Shown one piece after another: positions 10,058 through 30,887 of a DNA stretch of 35,128 bases. The first letter of the stretch is position 1. Every line of letters starts with the position of its first letter. Both the position numbers and the translations under genes were made by a program. A model generated the notes under the pieces. That model saw nothing but the letters and a program-made list of their open reading frames with translations, had not been told where the DNA came from and did no database searches. The stretch covers positions 1-35,128 of the forward strand of contig DASZJD010000028.1 in NCBI GenBank assembly GCA_035948415.1. Reading direction: 5' to 3'. This stretch comes from Acidimicrobiia bacterium. GTDB lineage: Bacteria; Actinomycetota; Acidimicrobiia; IMCC26256; PALSA-555.

Positions 10058-10561
10058 ATGACCGGTCCCCGACACCCGATCCGCGGTGACGCGCTCGGCA
10101 CCCAGCCCGAGGCGATCGCCGCCTTCTGGCGCCTGTACGGGCAGCTGTGGAGTCACGGCACCGTCGAGCACGCCGTGAAGGAGATCGCCCGGATCCGCAA
10201 CGCCCGGATCACCGACTGCGGGTACTGACGCAACGTCCGCTTCGCGGTCGCGAGGCAGCAGGGCCTGACCGAGGCGCGCGTCGCGCTCGTCGACGAGGGG
10301 TTCGAGGCCAGCGACCTGTCGCCCCGCGAGAAGGCGGTGGTCCGGTACGTCGACACGTTCCTCACCGACCCCAGCGGCCTGACCGAGGGGCAGCGCCAGG
10401 AGCTCCTCGAGCACTTCACGGCCGGGCAGCTCGTCGAGCTGACGGCCGCCGCGGCGCTGTTCGTCGGCTTCTCGAAGATCGCGATCGCCCTCGGGCCGCC
10501 CCCCGACATGCCGACCCAGGTCATCCCGACGCCCGACGTGCCCGACGAGGGCGGGTCGTAG
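10058..10561 (+). CDS. CMD/AhpD-like selenoprotein, CxxU (UGA read as selenocysteine)
   Basis: Reading through the in-frame TGA at 10226-10228 gives a 167-residue CMD/AhpD-like protein of normal family length. The residues around it are RITDCGY-U-RNVRF, so UGA (residue 57) falls exactly on the second cysteine of the family CxxC, with Cys54 before it. The frame continues with every one of the next fifty codons ending in G or C, as expected for real coding sequence here. A hairpin just after the UGA has the layout of a bacterial SECIS (listed separately). The ATG at 10058 has GGAGGAG at 10048-10054. It ends the plus-strand operon. Likely a thiol/selenol oxidoreductase or peroxidase in the cytoplasm. 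The alternative is a TGC-to-TGA nonsense mutation, which the hairpin and the second selenoprotein in this window argue against. Confidence 0.87.
10226..10254 (+). promoter_or_regulatory. UGA-Sec codon and SECIS-like hairpin of the CMD selenoprotein
   Basis: After TGA (10226-10228) a hairpin forms at 10240-10254: C40-G54, T41-A53, a single bulged T42, then C43-G52, G44-C51 and C45-G50, closing a four-base loop GGTC at 10246-10249. The SECIS upper stem of E. coli fdhF has the same design: three pairs below a GGUC loop, then one bulged U followed by a U-A pair. The loop begins 18 nt after the UGA, against 19 nt in fdhF. SelB recognises the loop GU and the bulged U. Confidence 0.82.
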
Positions 10562-25428: not shown

Positions 25429-25854
25429 ATGGGTGAGGTCCTGACGCCGGAGGAGTGGCAGAAGCCGCTGCCGGTGATCGACGAGGTGAACGGCGCCTAC
25501 TGGGCCGCCGCGGCCGAGGGCCGGCTCCTGATCCAGGAGTGCCCGCAGTGCCACCACCGGCAGTTCTACCCCCGCGCCCTCTGCACCCGCTGCGGCGGCG
25601 AGCCGGACTGGCTCGAGTGCCGCGGGCGCGGGACGGTGCACACGTTCACGGTCGTGCGCCAGATGGGCATGCGGCCGTTCCGGGACGAGCTGCCGTACGT
25701 CGTGGCGATGGTCGAGCTCGAGGAGGGGCCCATGATGATGGGCAACGTGACCGGCTGCGACCCCGACGCGGTCCGGATCGGCCTCCCGGTCGAGGCCTAC
25801 TTCGTGCGCGCCGCCGAGGACGTCGGGGTCGTCATGTGGCGGCCGCCCGCTTGA
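25429..25854 (+). CDS. DUF35 OB-fold zinc-ribbon protein, partner of the Ltp-type enzyme
   Basis: A 141-residue protein with a rubredoxin-like zinc ribbon (Cys38, Cys41, Cys52, Cys55 in CPQC...CTRC) followed by an OB-fold of about 75 residues, the standard DUF35 layout. DUF35 proteins bind acyl-CoA and form stable complexes with thiolase-like enzymes, as ChsH2 does with Ltp2 in cholesterol side-chain cleavage. The ATG at 25429 has GAGGAG shortly upstream. It is convergent with the thioesterase gene; a weak TGACG...CGTCA hairpin spans 25852-25867. Confidence 0.9.
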   Translation: MGEVLTPEEWQKPLPVIDEVNGAYWAAAAEGRLLIQECPQCHHRQFYPRALCTRCGGEPDWLECRGRGTVHTFTVVRQMGMRPFRDELPYVVAMVELEEGPMMMGNVTGCDPDAVRIGLPVEAYFVRAAEDVGVVMWRPPA

Positions 25855-26542: not shown

Positions 26543-27313
26543 TCAGCCGGGACTCGAACCGGGCCCCCTCGGCCCCGGGACGCCCCGGAACTCGTAGCGC
26601 TCGGCGCCGCGGCCGGCGACGATCGTGCGCACGACGCCGGCCTCGTCGGCGGCGAGCAGCGCCGCCACCGCCTCGGCGACCTCGGCGGGATCGAGGATCG
26701 GCCGTCCCTCGTCGAGGATCCGCCGCTTCTGCTCCGGCGTGAGCAGCCCGGTGTCGACGCCCCCCGGGCAAATGGCCTGGAGGCGCACGCCGCGCGCCGC
26801 GAGCTGCGGCGCGGCGCTGCGCACGAAGCCGACGACGGCGTGCTTCGTCGCCGCGTACATCGGGTCCTGCTCGTAGGGGCCGAGCCCGGCCAGCGACGCC
26901 GTCGCCACGATGGCGCCCCCGCCGCCACCGGCGATGATCGGGGCGAGGGCGCGCACGCCGAGCAGCACCCCGTCGAGGTTCACGCCCCGCACGCGCTCGA
27001 GCCGGGTCCAGGGCACGTCGAGGACGTCGGTGGGCACGGCCGCCGTCAGCACCCCCGCGTTCAGGAGCGCGCCCACGACCCGTTCCTCGCGGCGGCCGAG
27101 CTCGTCGACGAGCCGGCCCCAGGCGGCCTCGTCGCTGACGTCCAGGGCCACGAACCTGCCGCCGACGTCGTCGGCGACCCCGCGGCCGGCCTCGTCGGCG
27201 ACGTCGCAGCACACGACGGCGCGGCCGTCGCGGGCCAGCCGCCGCGCCGAGGCGGCGCCGATCCCGGACGCGGCGCCGGTCACGACGACCACCGGCGCCG
27301 CCGACCCGCTCAG
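26543..27313 (-). CDS. Short-chain dehydrogenase/reductase, probable CTG start
   Basis: A 256-residue classical SDR with TGAASGIGA, LLNAG, Ser140 in ATASLAG and YAATK (Tyr153, Lys157). The N-terminus needs a few residues before strand 1 (SGSAAPVVVVTG). The only start that provides them is a CTG at 27313, which overlaps the stop of the small CxxC gene as CTGA; a GTG at 27292 would begin directly at strand 1. The end (GVPGPRGPGSSPG) is in a GC-rich stretch. Predicted NAD(P)-dependent oxidoreductase of unknown substrate. Confidence 0.83.
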   Translation of the reverse strand: MSGSAAPVVVVTGAASGIGAASARRLARDGRAVVCCDVADEAGRGVADDVGGRFVALDVSDEAAWGRLVDELGRREERVVGALLNAGVLTAAVPTDVLDVPWTRLERVRGVNLDGVLLGVRALAPIIAGGGGGAIVATASLAGLGPYEQDPMYAATKHAVVGFVRSAAPQLAARGVRLQAICPGGVDTGLLTPEQKRRILDEGRPILDPAEVAEAVAALLAADEAGVVRTIVAGRGAERYEFRGVPGPRGPGSSPG

Positions 27314-27570
27314 GCGGCCTCCCGCGGGTCGTCGAGCCGCACCGCGCGCACCGCCGGCTCGTGCTCGCGGAGGGCGTCGAGGAGCAGCCGGTCGAGCAGC
27401 GGTCGGGGCACCACGCACTCGGCGCAGTCGGCCGACTCGAGCTCGAGGCGCAACGACAGCTCGCCCGCGGCCCCGTCCCACCCGACCACGACGACCTGGG
27501 CGCCGTCGGGCCCGAGGAAGCGGGCGACGGCGGCGAGCCCGGCGGCGAGCCCGGGCGGCGCCGAGCTCAC
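27310..27570 (-). CDS. Small CxxC protein, NifU C-terminal-domain-like (86 aa)
   Basis: An 86-residue protein with LRLELESADCAECVVPRPLLDRLLLDALREHEPAVRAVRL. The strand-CxxC-helix-strand order (Cys49, Cys52) resembles the NifU C-terminal domain, which holds Fe-S clusters, but the likeness is limited and another thiol function is possible. It starts at GTG 27570 in a GTGA overlap and ends in a CTGA overlap, so it is fully embedded in the coupled operon. Its position between two SDRs, downstream of a selenoprotein, suggests a redox or cluster-related role (inference). Confidence 0.65.
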   Translation of the reverse strand: MSSAPPGLAAGLAAVARFLGPDGAQVVVVGWDGAAGELSLRLELESADCAECVVPRPLLDRLLLDALREHEPAVRAVRLDDPREAA

Positions 27571-28361
27571 GTCGTCTCCAGGCGGGGCCGGTTGCGGGCC
27601 AGGTGGGCGCCGTTGTCGGAGAGCACGAGCTGCCCGGTCACCCCCCGCCCGAGGTCGGAGGCCAAGGCCACGACGAGGCGGGCGAGGTCGTCGGGCTCGT
27701 TCATCCGTCCGAGCGGGATCGAGGTCACGAGCGCGGCGAGATAGTCGTCCGACAGCGCGTCGCGGGTGCTGGGGGTCAGGGTCGTGCCGGGCGCCACCGC
27801 GTTCACGCGCACGCCGTGCGGGCCGAGCTCGACCGCCAGGGTCTGCGAGAGGTGGTTGATGGCGGCCTTGGCCGCGCCGTAGGCGGCGAGGTCGAGGGCC
27901 GGGCGCGTGCTCTCACCCGAGCTGACGTTGAGGATGACCCCGCCGACCCGCGCGGCGACCATGGCCGCGCCCTCGGCCCGGCAGCACGCCGCGGTCACGA
28001 GGAGGTTCTGGGTCACGACCTCCGCGACGTAGCCCGGGTCCTGGTCGAGGAACGGGGCCGGGGCGAGCCCGGCCAGGCTCCCGACGTTGTTGACGGCGAC
28101 GTCGAGCCCGCCGAGCGCGGCGACGGTCGCCTCGACGGCGTCGGCGGCGGCGCCGTCGCGCCGGAGGTCGGCCTCCACGGCGGCGACCCGCGTGCCCTCG
28201 CGTCCGGCCTCGGCCGCGGCCGACGCCAGGGCCGCGGCGTCGCGGTCCACGAGCGCGACGTCGCACCCGGCGCGGGCCAGCCAGGACGCGACCGCCCGTC
28301 CGATGCCGGCGCCGGCGCCGGTGACGAGCGCGGCGCGGTCCGCCAGTCGCAGGTCGATCAC
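27567..28361 (-). CDS. Short-chain dehydrogenase/reductase
   Basis: A 264-residue classical SDR: TGAGAGIGRA, NNVGSLAG, Ser148 in NVSSGES and YGAAK (Tyr161, Lys165), ending with GVTGQLVLSDNGAHL. All catalytic residues are present. GTG at 28361 overlaps the upstream alcohol dehydrogenase stop (GTGA), and its own stop overlaps the next start. Predicted to oxidise or reduce a hydroxyl/ketone intermediate. Confidence 0.88.
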   Translation of the reverse strand: MIDLRLADRAALVTGAGAGIGRAVASWLARAGCDVALVDRDAAALASAAAEAGREGTRVAAVEADLRRDGAAADAVEATVAALGGLDVAVNNVGSLAGLAPAPFLDQDPGYVAEVVTQNLLVTAACCRAEGAAMVAARVGGVILNVSSGESTRPALDLAAYGAAKAAINHLSQTLAVELGPHGVRVNAVAPGTTLTPSTRDALSDDYLAALVTSIPLGRMNEPDDLARLVVALASDLGRGVTGQLVLSDNGAHLARNRPRLETT

Positions 28362-29296
28362 GGCTCGAGCACGACCTTGATCGCGCCCGAGCCCCGGTCG
28401 GCGGCGACGCGGAAGGCCTCGGCCGCGTCCTCGAGCGGGAAGCGGTGGGTCACGAGCGCGGCGACGATCTCCGGTTCCCGAGCCAGGAGCGCGGCGGCGT
28501 CGTCGAGGTCGCGCCCGCCCGGATGCCACCCGTACGTGTACGACCAGCGGAACTCGAGCTCCTTCATGAGCGCCGGGATCCCCGGCACCGGGACCGGGCT
28601 CCAGTGCGTGCTGAGGAGCAGGACGAGCCCGCCCGGCCGGCACAGCGACGCCGCGCGCGCGAGCGCGCTGTCGGTGCCGGCGGCCTCGACGACGACGTCG
28701 TACTCCTCGTCGCCGACGCCGGACGCGCCGAGCCGCTCGCCGGCCTCCTGCTGGTGGCGGTGCCGTGCCGCCAGCCCGATCGTGGTGACGCCGCGGCCGC
28801 GGGCCGCGGCCACCGCCGCCAGCCCGATGGCGCCGCCCCCGACGACCGCGACTCGAACGGCAGGGTCGACGGCGGCGAGCCGCAGCCCGTGCCCGGCGAC
28901 GGCGAGCGGCTCGACCAGGCAGCCGTCGGCGACCGGCACGCCCGCGGGCAGCGGCACGAGGGCGGTCGCGCCGACGAGGACGCGCTCCGCCATCCCGCCG
29001 TCGACCGCCACCCCGAGGGCTCGCTCGGCGCCGGTGCGGCAGCGGTGCGGGGCGCCGGCCCGGCACTGGTCGCAGGCGCCGCACGGCTGGCTGGGGTCGA
29101 TCGCGACCGCGGTGCCGTCCTCGAGCCGGCCCGCGAACTCGTGGCCCAGCGTGAACGGGAGCGGGCCGTGCTCGAGCAGGTGCAGGTCGCTGCCGCAGAT
29201 CCCGGCCGCGACGACGTCGACGCGGCGGCCGGGTCCCGCCGGCTCGGGCCGATCGACGACGGTGACGCCGTCGGGGGAGTCGCGGACGGCCCTCAC
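28358..29296 (-). CDS. Zinc-dependent alcohol dehydrogenase (MDR family)
   Basis: A 312-residue medium-chain dehydrogenase. Catalytic zinc ligands include Cys34 in GICGSD and His52-Glu53 in GHE; the structural zinc is held by Cys72, Cys75, Cys78 and Cys86. The Rossmann motif GGGAIG lies at ~153-158. It is shorter than the usual ~350 residues, with trimmed loops. The GTG at 29296 gives MRAVRDSPDGVTVVDRPEP and overlaps the stop of the UGSC selenoprotein gene (GTGA). Predicted NAD(P)-dependent alcohol oxidation. Confidence 0.88.
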   Translation of the reverse strand: MRAVRDSPDGVTVVDRPEPAGPGRRVDVVAAGICGSDLHLLEHGPLPFTLGHEFAGRLEDGTAVAIDPSQPCGACDQCRAGAPHRCRTGAERALGVAVDGGMAERVLVGATALVPLPAGVPVADGCLVEPLAVAGHGLRLAAVDPAVRVAVVGGGAIGLAAVAAARGRGVTTIGLAARHRHQQEAGERLGASGVGDEEYDVVVEAAGTDSALARAASLCRPGGLVLLLSTHWSPVPVPGIPALMKELEFRWSYTYGWHPGGRDLDDAAALLAREPEIVAALVTHRFPLEDAAEAFRVAADRGSGAIKVVLEP

Positions 29297-29826
29297 GGGT
29301 GACCGGTCAGGAGCCCGAGCACCGCCTCGACCGCCTCGTCGGCGCGGCTCGTGACGTCCGCGGCGGCGATCCCGCCGAGCGGGTGCGTGACCACCGCGAT
29401 GCGGGCGCTCGGCAGCCCGGACGCGGCCGCGACCTGGCGGGCGAGCGCCGCGAACGCGGTCGTGGCCACGAGGACGGTCGGGCGCCCGGCGGCTTCGAGC
29501 CGCACCAGGTCGTGGACACTCCACGACGTGCACGACCCTCAGTCGGCGGATCCGGTCACGACGACGTGCGCGGCCTCGAGCTGGCGCAGGATCTCCGGCT
29601 CGGCGGGCTCGGCCGCGGTCGCCTTGGCCGCGACGATGGCCACCTCGGCGCCGGTGCGGGCGGCGAGCCGCTCCGCGATGCCGGTCAGCAGGGCGCGGGC
29701 GTTCGGCTTCCCGTTGTCGAGCACCGCGATGGCCCGGCCGCTCAGGCTCGGCACCGCCGGCGCGGCGGCGGCCGGCGTCGGCGCCACCGCCCCCTCGGGG
29801 GAGAGCAGCTCGAGGGCGCGGGTCAT
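29293..29826 (-). CDS. UGSC-family selenoprotein (UGA read as selenocysteine)
   Basis: A 177-residue protein when the TGA at 29539-29541 is read as Sec. Around it the frame reads VVTGSAD-U-GSCTSWSVHD, exactly the UGSC motif that names this selenoprotein family (Sec96, Cys99). Before it are AIAVLDNGKPNARALL and an alpha/beta-type domain; after it PTVLVATTAFAALARQVAAASGLP and the conserved VVTHPLGGI. Both halves are in frame and share the same codon bias. The ATG at 29826 overlaps the upstream stop as ATGA, and the end overlaps the alcohol dehydrogenase start as GTGA. The biochemical function of the family is not established; a selenol/thiol redox role is likely. Gene callers that treat UGA as stop would split it into a 95-residue and a ~70-residue piece. 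Confidence 0.93.
29509..29541 (-). promoter_or_regulatory. UGA-Sec codon and SECIS-like hairpin of the UGSC gene
   Basis: After UGA (29541-29539, minus strand) a perfect seven-pair stem GTCGTGG/CCACGAC (29527-29521 with 29515-29509) closes a five-base loop AGTGT. The loop begins 19 nt after the UGA and contains GU, like bacterial SECIS elements recognised by SelB. Unlike the CMD gene's hairpin it has no bulged U. A competing pairing GGTCGTG/CACGACC is also possible. Confidence 0.75.
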
Positions 29827-30887
29827 GGCTCGACCGCCACCGTGACGCTCCTCGTCATGCCCCAGCTCGGGATCACGCAGGAGTGCTTGCCGGGGCCGCC
29901 GGCGACGAGGACCCGCACGTTGTCGGGATCGTCGGTCATCGGGAGGAGGGCGTCGTCGTCCTCGATGGCCGCCAGCCACGGCGCCCACGCCACCGCCTCG
30001 AAGGCGCGGCGGAGCTCGCCCCGCGGCCGCCGGGCTCGCTCGTACAGGAACGACTGCACGTCGCCCCGCGACCAGCCGTGCGCGGCGATGGTCGCCGCGT
30101 GCTCCGGGCCCAGCACGACGAAGAACTCGCCCTGGGAGATGCAGGCGTTGTTGGACCCGAGGGTCGCCATCACCGAGGCGGCCTTCGTCAGCAGCCGGAC
30201 GGGCTCGTCGCTCTCCATGTCGTGAACGTTGTGCGGGTTCTCCCCGCAGGCGACGGTCACCGCGCTGGCGGCGTCGACGCCGCGGCTGCGGTGGTACGCG
30301 GGCCACGGGCTGGCGGCGGCGTGCTCGGCGACGCAGTACGTGTACTTGCTCGGCTGGCCCTGCGTGGCGGCGTCGCCGGCGCCGGGTCGGGCCCCGCCGA
30401 CGTGCAGCAGGACGAAGCGCACGGCGCGGCCGACGGTGGCGTTGGCGCGGTGGCCGGGACCGAACGCGCCAACACCGGCGTTGAACCCGCCGCGCTCCAC
30501 CGCGTCCCCGTGCACGATCACGAGCGGCGCCACCGGGTGCGTCGTCGCCTGCACCCCCCGCAGGTTCACCTCGGGTCGCGTGAGGGCGCGGACGGCGGCC
30601 GCGACGACCGGCAGCACCGACGGCGGGCAGCCGGCCAGGACCGCGTTCACTGCGACCGTGCGCAGCGTCGCGGCGCCGTCGCGCGGCGGCACCACGCCGA
30701 GCAGCTCGTCGGGGTCCCCCGCGGCGGCGAGCATGCCCTCGACCCGCGCCCGGGTCGGCGCGACCACCGGCAGGCCGTCACCCCACCCGCGCGCGTCGAG
30801 CAGCCCCCACAGCGCCTCGGGCGACTCGTCCGCGACCTCGACCACCTCGTCGGGGTGAGCGGTGAGCGCGTGGTCCGGAAGTGCCAT
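29823..30887 (-). CDS. Cysteine-containing protein of unknown function, partner of the UGSC selenoprotein
   Basis: A 354-residue cytoplasmic protein that I do not recognise as a named enzyme. It starts with an acidic segment and LLDARGWGDGLPVVAPTRARVEGML. It has five cysteines (87, 185, 214, 249, 337) in motifs such as LAGCPPS, KYTYCVAEH, ACGENPHN, NNACISQGEF and KHSCVIPSWGM, plus several His and Asn residues that could form an active site or bind metal. No signal peptide or membrane segment. It is first in the long operon, preceded by TACACT and AGGGGATC, and overlaps the UGSC gene by four bases (ATGA), so the two are probably made in fixed ratio and may act as a complex (inference). Confidence 0.8.
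   Translation of the reverse strand: MALPDHALTAHPDEVVEVADESPEALWGLLDARGWGDGLPVVAPTRARVEGMLAAAGDPDELLGVVPPRDGAATLRTVAVNAVLAGCPPSVLPVVAAAVRALTRPEVNLRGVQATTHPVAPLVIVHGDAVERGGFNAGVGAFGPGHRANATVGRAVRFVLLHVGGARPGAGDAATQGQPSKYTYCVAEHAAASPWPAYHRSRGVDAASAVTVACGENPHNVHDMESDEPVRLLTKAASVMATLGSNNACISQGEFFVVLGPEHAATIAAHGWSRGDVQSFLYERARRPRGELRRAFEAVAWAPWLAAIEDDDALLPMTDDPDNVRVLVAGGPGKHSCVIPSWGMTRSVTVAVEP

Follow-up and report, generated by a model that had tools for sequence, protein, structure and literature searches.

A UGSC-family gene with an in-frame UGA codon and a remote relation to GrdB/PrdB, and its constant partner gene, in an Acidimicrobiia genome

A stretch of 35,128 nucleotides from an Acidimicrobiia bacterium (contig DASZJD010000028.1 of assembly GCA_035948415.1), called the window below, carries on its minus strand, from 29826 to 29293, a gene of the UGSC family whose reading frame contains a UGA codon. 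Comparative evidence indicates that this is almost certainly a genuine selenoprotein gene, in which the UGA codes for selenocysteine (Sec). That Sec is inserted here, and that the gene forms a two-gene module with the partner gene directly upstream, is regarded as highly probable. The explanation that best covers the data as a whole, and that we hold with good confidence, is a selenoprotein with a constant partner and a remote kinship to the selenoproteins GrdB and PrdB, to which a reductase function may be attached. In the first-pass annotation, made from the letters of the window, the gene had been taken as a UGA-containing selenoprotein of the UGSC family, and this part stands; the constant upstream partner, the presence of three UGA-type UGSC genes in the genome and the kinship with GrdB/PrdB had been missed. 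The unnamed partner, this kinship and the record of the hairpin at synonymous sites are points that a specialist may not expect.

Decoding of the UGA codon

When TGA is translated as Sec, the frame 29826 to 29293 gives 177 residues and a stop codon. The single in-frame TGA is found at residue 96 (29541–29539), and the rest of the frame is open; under the standard code the frame ends after codon 95, and the annotation of the gene is thus at stake. The surrounding sequence is GSAD-U-GSCTSWSVHD, where D-U-G-S-C corresponds to residues 95–99 and the cysteine (Cys) at position 99 gives a UxxC motif. The frame D-U-G-S-C-T-S-W-S-V-H-D, noticed in the first-pass annotation, is indeed present in the minus-strand translation, while the UGSC protein is not found when the plus strand at these coordinates is translated. 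The four-base overlaps described on both sides are also there: ATGA (29826–29823) is shared by the start of the UGSC gene and the end of the partner gene, and GTGA (29296–29293) by the UGSC stop and the GTG start of a dehydrogenase gene.

The window gene is a member of an already known family, as judged from two profiles. The protein scores 151.8 bits with PF24696 (UGSC; cut-off 25) and 125.1 bits with NF041046 (UGSC family (seleno)protein; cut-off 125, only just above), so that the earlier family assignment is borne out by both. Published accounts of the family go back to 2008 at the latest, with 255 Sec and 21 Cys sequences from ocean samples (PMC2398784), and UGSC is among the commonest selenoproteins of aquatic metagenomes. 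It is also listed in reviews of 2022 and 2026 (PMC9312934, PMC13188914), the latter of which calls the functions of such selenoproteins largely uncharacterised, and UGSC-motif selenoproteins are mentioned for Geodermatophilaceae, which have a tRNA-Sec of anticodon CUA (PMC5330540).

A UGSC match is present in 105 of the 296 genomes of the class. The counts below refer to 151 UGSC genes, namely all 150 places among the stronger matches listed and a third copy in the genome of the window (G000); 11 of the 105 genomes have no Sec/Cys class, their matches falling outside those listed. The codon at the Sec position is TGA in 127 genes, TGC in 21 and TGT in 3, and each of the 127 TGA genes has exactly one in-frame stop, a pattern far beyond chance. 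One of them, L164, with U-A-A-C instead of U-G-x-C, was added to the set by hand. G000 itself carries three UGSC genes with one TGA in each, and the nearest relative, in genome G060 (74% identical), also has TGA. When the window protein is aligned with 33 relatives at the U/C-G-S-C motif, Cys99 is invariant across the 34 sequences. A FastTree tree requires at least five changes between Sec and Cys, four of which are forced by well-supported branches.

The machinery for Sec insertion is encoded in the same genome (3.4 Mb in 133 contigs, 98.3% complete). A tRNA-Sec with anticodon UCA (C17:64832-64921, 66.7 bits), SelB (C17:43320-45074), SelA (C17:45101-46399) and SelD (C85:16859-17803) all score above their cut-offs. 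The first-pass annotation had expected tRNA-Sec and SelB in this genome and had staked its reading on the presence of Sec-decoding genes; both are found, SelA and SelD in addition, and the set is complete. Over the class, 83 genomes carry one TGA gene or more, and tRNA-Sec is recognised in 76 of them, versus 3 of 11 Cys-only genomes (Fisher p = 7.6e-6).

A putative bacterial Sec insertion sequence (SECIS)-like hairpin follows the codon. The seven-pair hairpin 12–30 nucleotides after the UGA is as first described: at 29527–29509 on the minus strand, bases +12 to +18 (GUCGUGG) pair with +24 to +30 (CCACGAC) around the loop AGUGU. The folded 56-nucleotide stretch has z = -2.82 against dinucleotide shuffles; for the window hairpin by itself, synonymous resampling gives no more than a moderate deviation (z -1.97, p 0.033). 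Across the family, the complete seven pairs occur in 88 of the 127 TGA genes, which hold 86 distinct 33-nucleotide sequences, versus 1 of the 24 Cys genes; 500 synonymous draws with each gene's own codon usage give 5.7 seven-pair genes on average and 12 at most, and no TGA gene has seven pairs when the hairpin frame is slid by 1–3 nucleotides.

The two commonest hairpin forms differ at one pair, bases 18 and 24. Forms with Trp (TGG) mostly use GTC for the later Val, and forms with Cys (TGC) nearly always use GTG, so that the two bases still pair; counting G-U, 122 of 127 TGA genes have this pair, versus 4 of 24 Cys genes. Both types, Trp and Cys, are subfamilies of old standing, and the pattern therefore reflects retention rather than many independent changes. 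Furthermore, the loop serine codon is AGT in 109 of 114 TGA genes versus 1 of 12 Cys genes, and elsewhere in the same genes AGT makes up 5% of serine codons. In a folding test of 28 TGA and 16 Cys genes (the latter counting one gene twice, L022 and L055 being the same place), the mean z is -1.68 for TGA versus -0.17 for TGC and -0.50 for TGT (Mann-Whitney p = 2e-6). By these comparisons the hairpin is selected as RNA and kept through synonymous codons. Insertion of Sec at codon 96 is a matter of comparative sequence evidence, not of protein chemistry.

The partner gene and the genomic setting

The partner gene (29823–30887, minus strand) encodes 354 residues and is unclassified: no Pfam or NCBIfam family convincingly matched it in 36 members (best E 0.019 and 0.03), and no sequence match was found in the PDB. 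Its company with UGSC is nearly constant. Relatives of the partner occur in the surrounding stretch of 149 of the 151 UGSC genes; 148 share the strand of the UGSC gene, with 115 lying upstream of it and 33 downstream. Of the two exceptions, L195 is at a contig end, and for L026 (genome G205) the contig holds a partner some 3.8 kb upstream. An independent search of the 296 genomes with the partner found its family in 104 genomes, 102 of them with UGSC as well; both families are thus present in 102 of the 107 genomes having either one, with a UGSC match only in G100, G150 and G196 and a partner match only in G088 and G158. Outside the class, Cys-type UGSC genes of Yinghuangia, Embleya, Streptomyces, Conexibacter and Methanobacteriaceae also come with the partner. 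It is present at 13 of 14 named loci there (L065 is without it), in a scan whose Cys-for-Sec pattern could find only Cys forms. The genomic linkage itself is observed, and we infer from it that the two products act together as a complex.

Some loci are more elaborate. In Conexibacter sp. CPCC 206217 (L061, 4242-7583), two distinct partner paralogues flank a Cys-type UGSC gene; this cluster is followed by genes of thiolase-like and of ChsH2-type zinc-ribbon/OB kind. At L055 (2125-3988), the first pair is joined by a divergent second UGSC-like gene, which has a partner of its own and the small CxxC gene.

For the ocean samples, the 2008 report mentions a domain, "Unknown_1", fused to UGSC (PMC2398784). 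The partner family may be this domain. A constant separate partner gene is not linked to UGSC in the portions of the published family accounts at hand.

The structural model of the partner has a mean predicted local distance difference test (pLDDT) score of 87.5 and gives no convincing fold match with Foldseek or VIA-align: Foldseek places class I fumarase and cyclic amide hydrolases nearest, from E 0.0016 at TM about 0.2, and VIA-align gives Z of at most 5.5. These matches are given no weight as to function.

Downstream on the same strand, the UGSC gene is followed by a gene of the zinc-dependent alcohol dehydrogenase family with a GTG start (28358–29296; PF08240, PF00107), a short-chain dehydrogenase (27567–28376, start uncertain; PF13561, 171 bits), an unclassified 86-residue CxxC protein (27310–27570), a second short-chain dehydrogenase (26543–27310, start uncertain; PF00106, 135.7 bits) and a weakly matching thioesterase-like gene. 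The CxxC protein, for which no Pfam match was found, has relatives in at least 17 other UGSC loci, mostly of Cys type (tblastn). The window also holds a ChsH2-type gene (25429–25854), a branched-chain-type binding protein gene and a nitronate monooxygenase-like gene, and the gene setting looks catabolic.

Another UGA gene is found at 10058–10561 on the plus strand, with the UGA at 10226–10228 in the motif C-G-Y-U. It had been assigned to the CMD family, and this agrees with PF02627 (32.8 bits, cut-off 23); the nearest NCBIfam models, below cut-off, are peroxidase- or AhpD-related. Among its 16 closest relatives listed in the class, itself included, 11 have one TGA, 4 none and 1 two, counts which do not imply that the TGA codons align.

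Kinship with GrdB/PrdB and the predicted fold

The closest families in sequence are GrdB and PrdB. In an open NCBIfam scan with 34 UGSC proteins, GrdB-type models rank directly after UGSC, and at E up to 0.05 the members matched number 18 for GrdB, 16 for GrdF, 10 for mixed selenoprotein B, 5 for GrdH and 4 for PrdB. The Pfam profile PF07355 (GRDB) stops just before Sec, and 20 GRDB-type proteins of the class were therefore extended past the TGA. Aligned by hhalign with the profile of the 34 UGSC proteins, this extended profile scores 71.6 (E 1.2e-10) over 83 columns, with Sec on Sec, versus 21.3 for the best of 100 column shuffles, 13.8 for the reversed profile and 15.7 for the partner profile; with the UGSC motif masked, the score is still 56–63. 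The profiles thus show remote homology between UGSC and the domain of GrdB/PrdB that bears Sec. The 2008 authors list UGSC apart from the GrdB/PrdB families and suggest a thioredoxin-like fold for it (PMC2398784). A link between UGSC and GrdB/PrdB was not found in the available parts of the published UGSC accounts; the entry descriptions of Pfam and NCBIfam, outside this scope, may state it.

No PF07355 match was found in the genome of the window. In other genomes of the class, short GRDB-type proteins (L078 to L094) have a TGA in U-P-x-C just past the end of the Pfam model, and apparently represent a further set of selenoprotein genes.

The AlphaFold2 model of UGSC (mean pLDDT 91.4) is a five-stranded fold of alternating strands and helices, in which residues 96 and 99 lie at the start of helix 97–112, after the central strand 88–94. 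The top VIA-align rows are mixed chains of flavodoxin-, CheY- and cobalamin-domain-like type, with Z up to 11.4. The best row, 8s7v_H of the MCR activation complex (root-mean-square deviation 3.0 Å over 130 residues), is taken for the fold class only, and the 50 rows shown include no thioredoxin. The predicted order of five strand-helix repeats argues against the published thioredoxin-like fold, while the fold searches exclude no family.

Possible function and comparison with known systems

Because of the catabolic setting and the kinship with GrdB/PrdB, a two-subunit Sec-dependent reductase can be proposed. The UGA at codon 96 is most probably read by SelB with Sec-tRNA-Sec (UCA), helped by the hairpin 12–30 nucleotides downstream, and the UGSC protein and the 354-residue upstream product would make up the two subunits of an oxidoreductase. 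The partner would hold an activated substrate for attack by the selenolate of Sec96; Cys99 would then resolve the bond formed to selenium, and a dithiol of the cell would reduce it. The substrate probably comes from among the intermediates of the coenzyme A-linked catabolism encoded around the gene. Taken alone, this reductase mechanism is tentative. So is the wider proposal that UGSC and its partner might represent an unrecognised class of Sec-dependent reductase, related to selenoprotein B of glycine and D-proline reductases, having a different second subunit and serving catabolism rather than Stickland fermentation. Its users would be Acidimicrobiia-type actinobacteria and, in the Cys form, Streptomyces relatives, Conexibacter and Methanobacteriaceae. 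The constant partner and the remote kinship make the function of UGSC testable.

Several results weigh against this picture or parts of it. All GrdB/PrdB hits are far below the curated cut-offs (best E 7e-5 among the 34 members), and the window protein itself matches PrdB only, at E 0.35. The faint fold neighbours of the partner are not redox enzymes. The partner profile has no likeness to a GrdE-like protein (probability 0.23, for the single sequence compared), and the pyruvoyl chemistry of glycine reductase is therefore not supported. On the side of decoding, seven genomes with TGA genes (G020, G032, G115, G178, G194, G239 and G251) have no recognisable tRNA-Sec, even on a second search; the six best hits inspected, from five of the seven, are tRNA-Ser or tRNA-Cys. 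Perhaps these are assembly gaps. Within this group, the listed completeness of G020 is 100%, UGSC matches number six in G251, and G239 and G251 also have TGA in their CMD gene.

Sec may instead serve a different activity of the pair. Thiol oxidoreductases carry their active pair in the arrangement seen here, UxxC at the start of a helix. It is thus possible, if rather unlikely, that UGSC and its partner form a thiol/selenol redox device acting on proteins or peroxides, like a thioredoxin or peroxidase, and not a substrate-cleaving reductase, in line with the fold suggested in 2008 (PMC2398784). The UGSC model, however, is predicted to alternate strand and helix five times, and the closest sequence families are GrdB/PrdB. 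Moreover, a constant 354-residue partner is not known to be typical of thioredoxins. Less can be said for a non-redox reaction (hydrolysis, hydration or decarboxylation) with Sec as nucleophile, which we judge improbable: it would suit the fumarase- and amide hydrolase-like neighbours of the partner, but those matches are weak (best VIA-align Z 5.5), and the invariance of Cys99 in 34 sequences fits a redox pair. It is highly improbable that the UGA arose by nonsense mutation or assembly error where Cys should stand, or that it is a real stop, leaving a dead gene or a short product: Cys forms do make up 24 of the 151 genes and the standard code does end the frame there, but the frame is intact after the UGA, the four-base overlaps are present, the hairpin is kept at synonymous sites, the genome has the full Sec machinery, and nonsense mutation is rejected on the conservation of the same TGA in 127 genes, that of G060 included.

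Compared with known systems, the gene has in common with the UGSC family (PF24696 / NF041046) the profile match, the UxxC motif, the UGA with its hairpin and the occurrence of Sec and Cys forms, and nothing essential differs. With "Unknown_1" (PMC2398784), the partner shares being a second part physically tied to UGSC, whereas here it is a separate gene at nearly every locus. With selenoprotein B of glycine, sarcosine and betaine reductase (GrdB, GrdF, GrdH) and with PrdB, the relation is one of remote homology: GrdB has a long N-terminal part, which UGSC does not have, and along the 83 columns that the two have in common the Sec columns are aligned.
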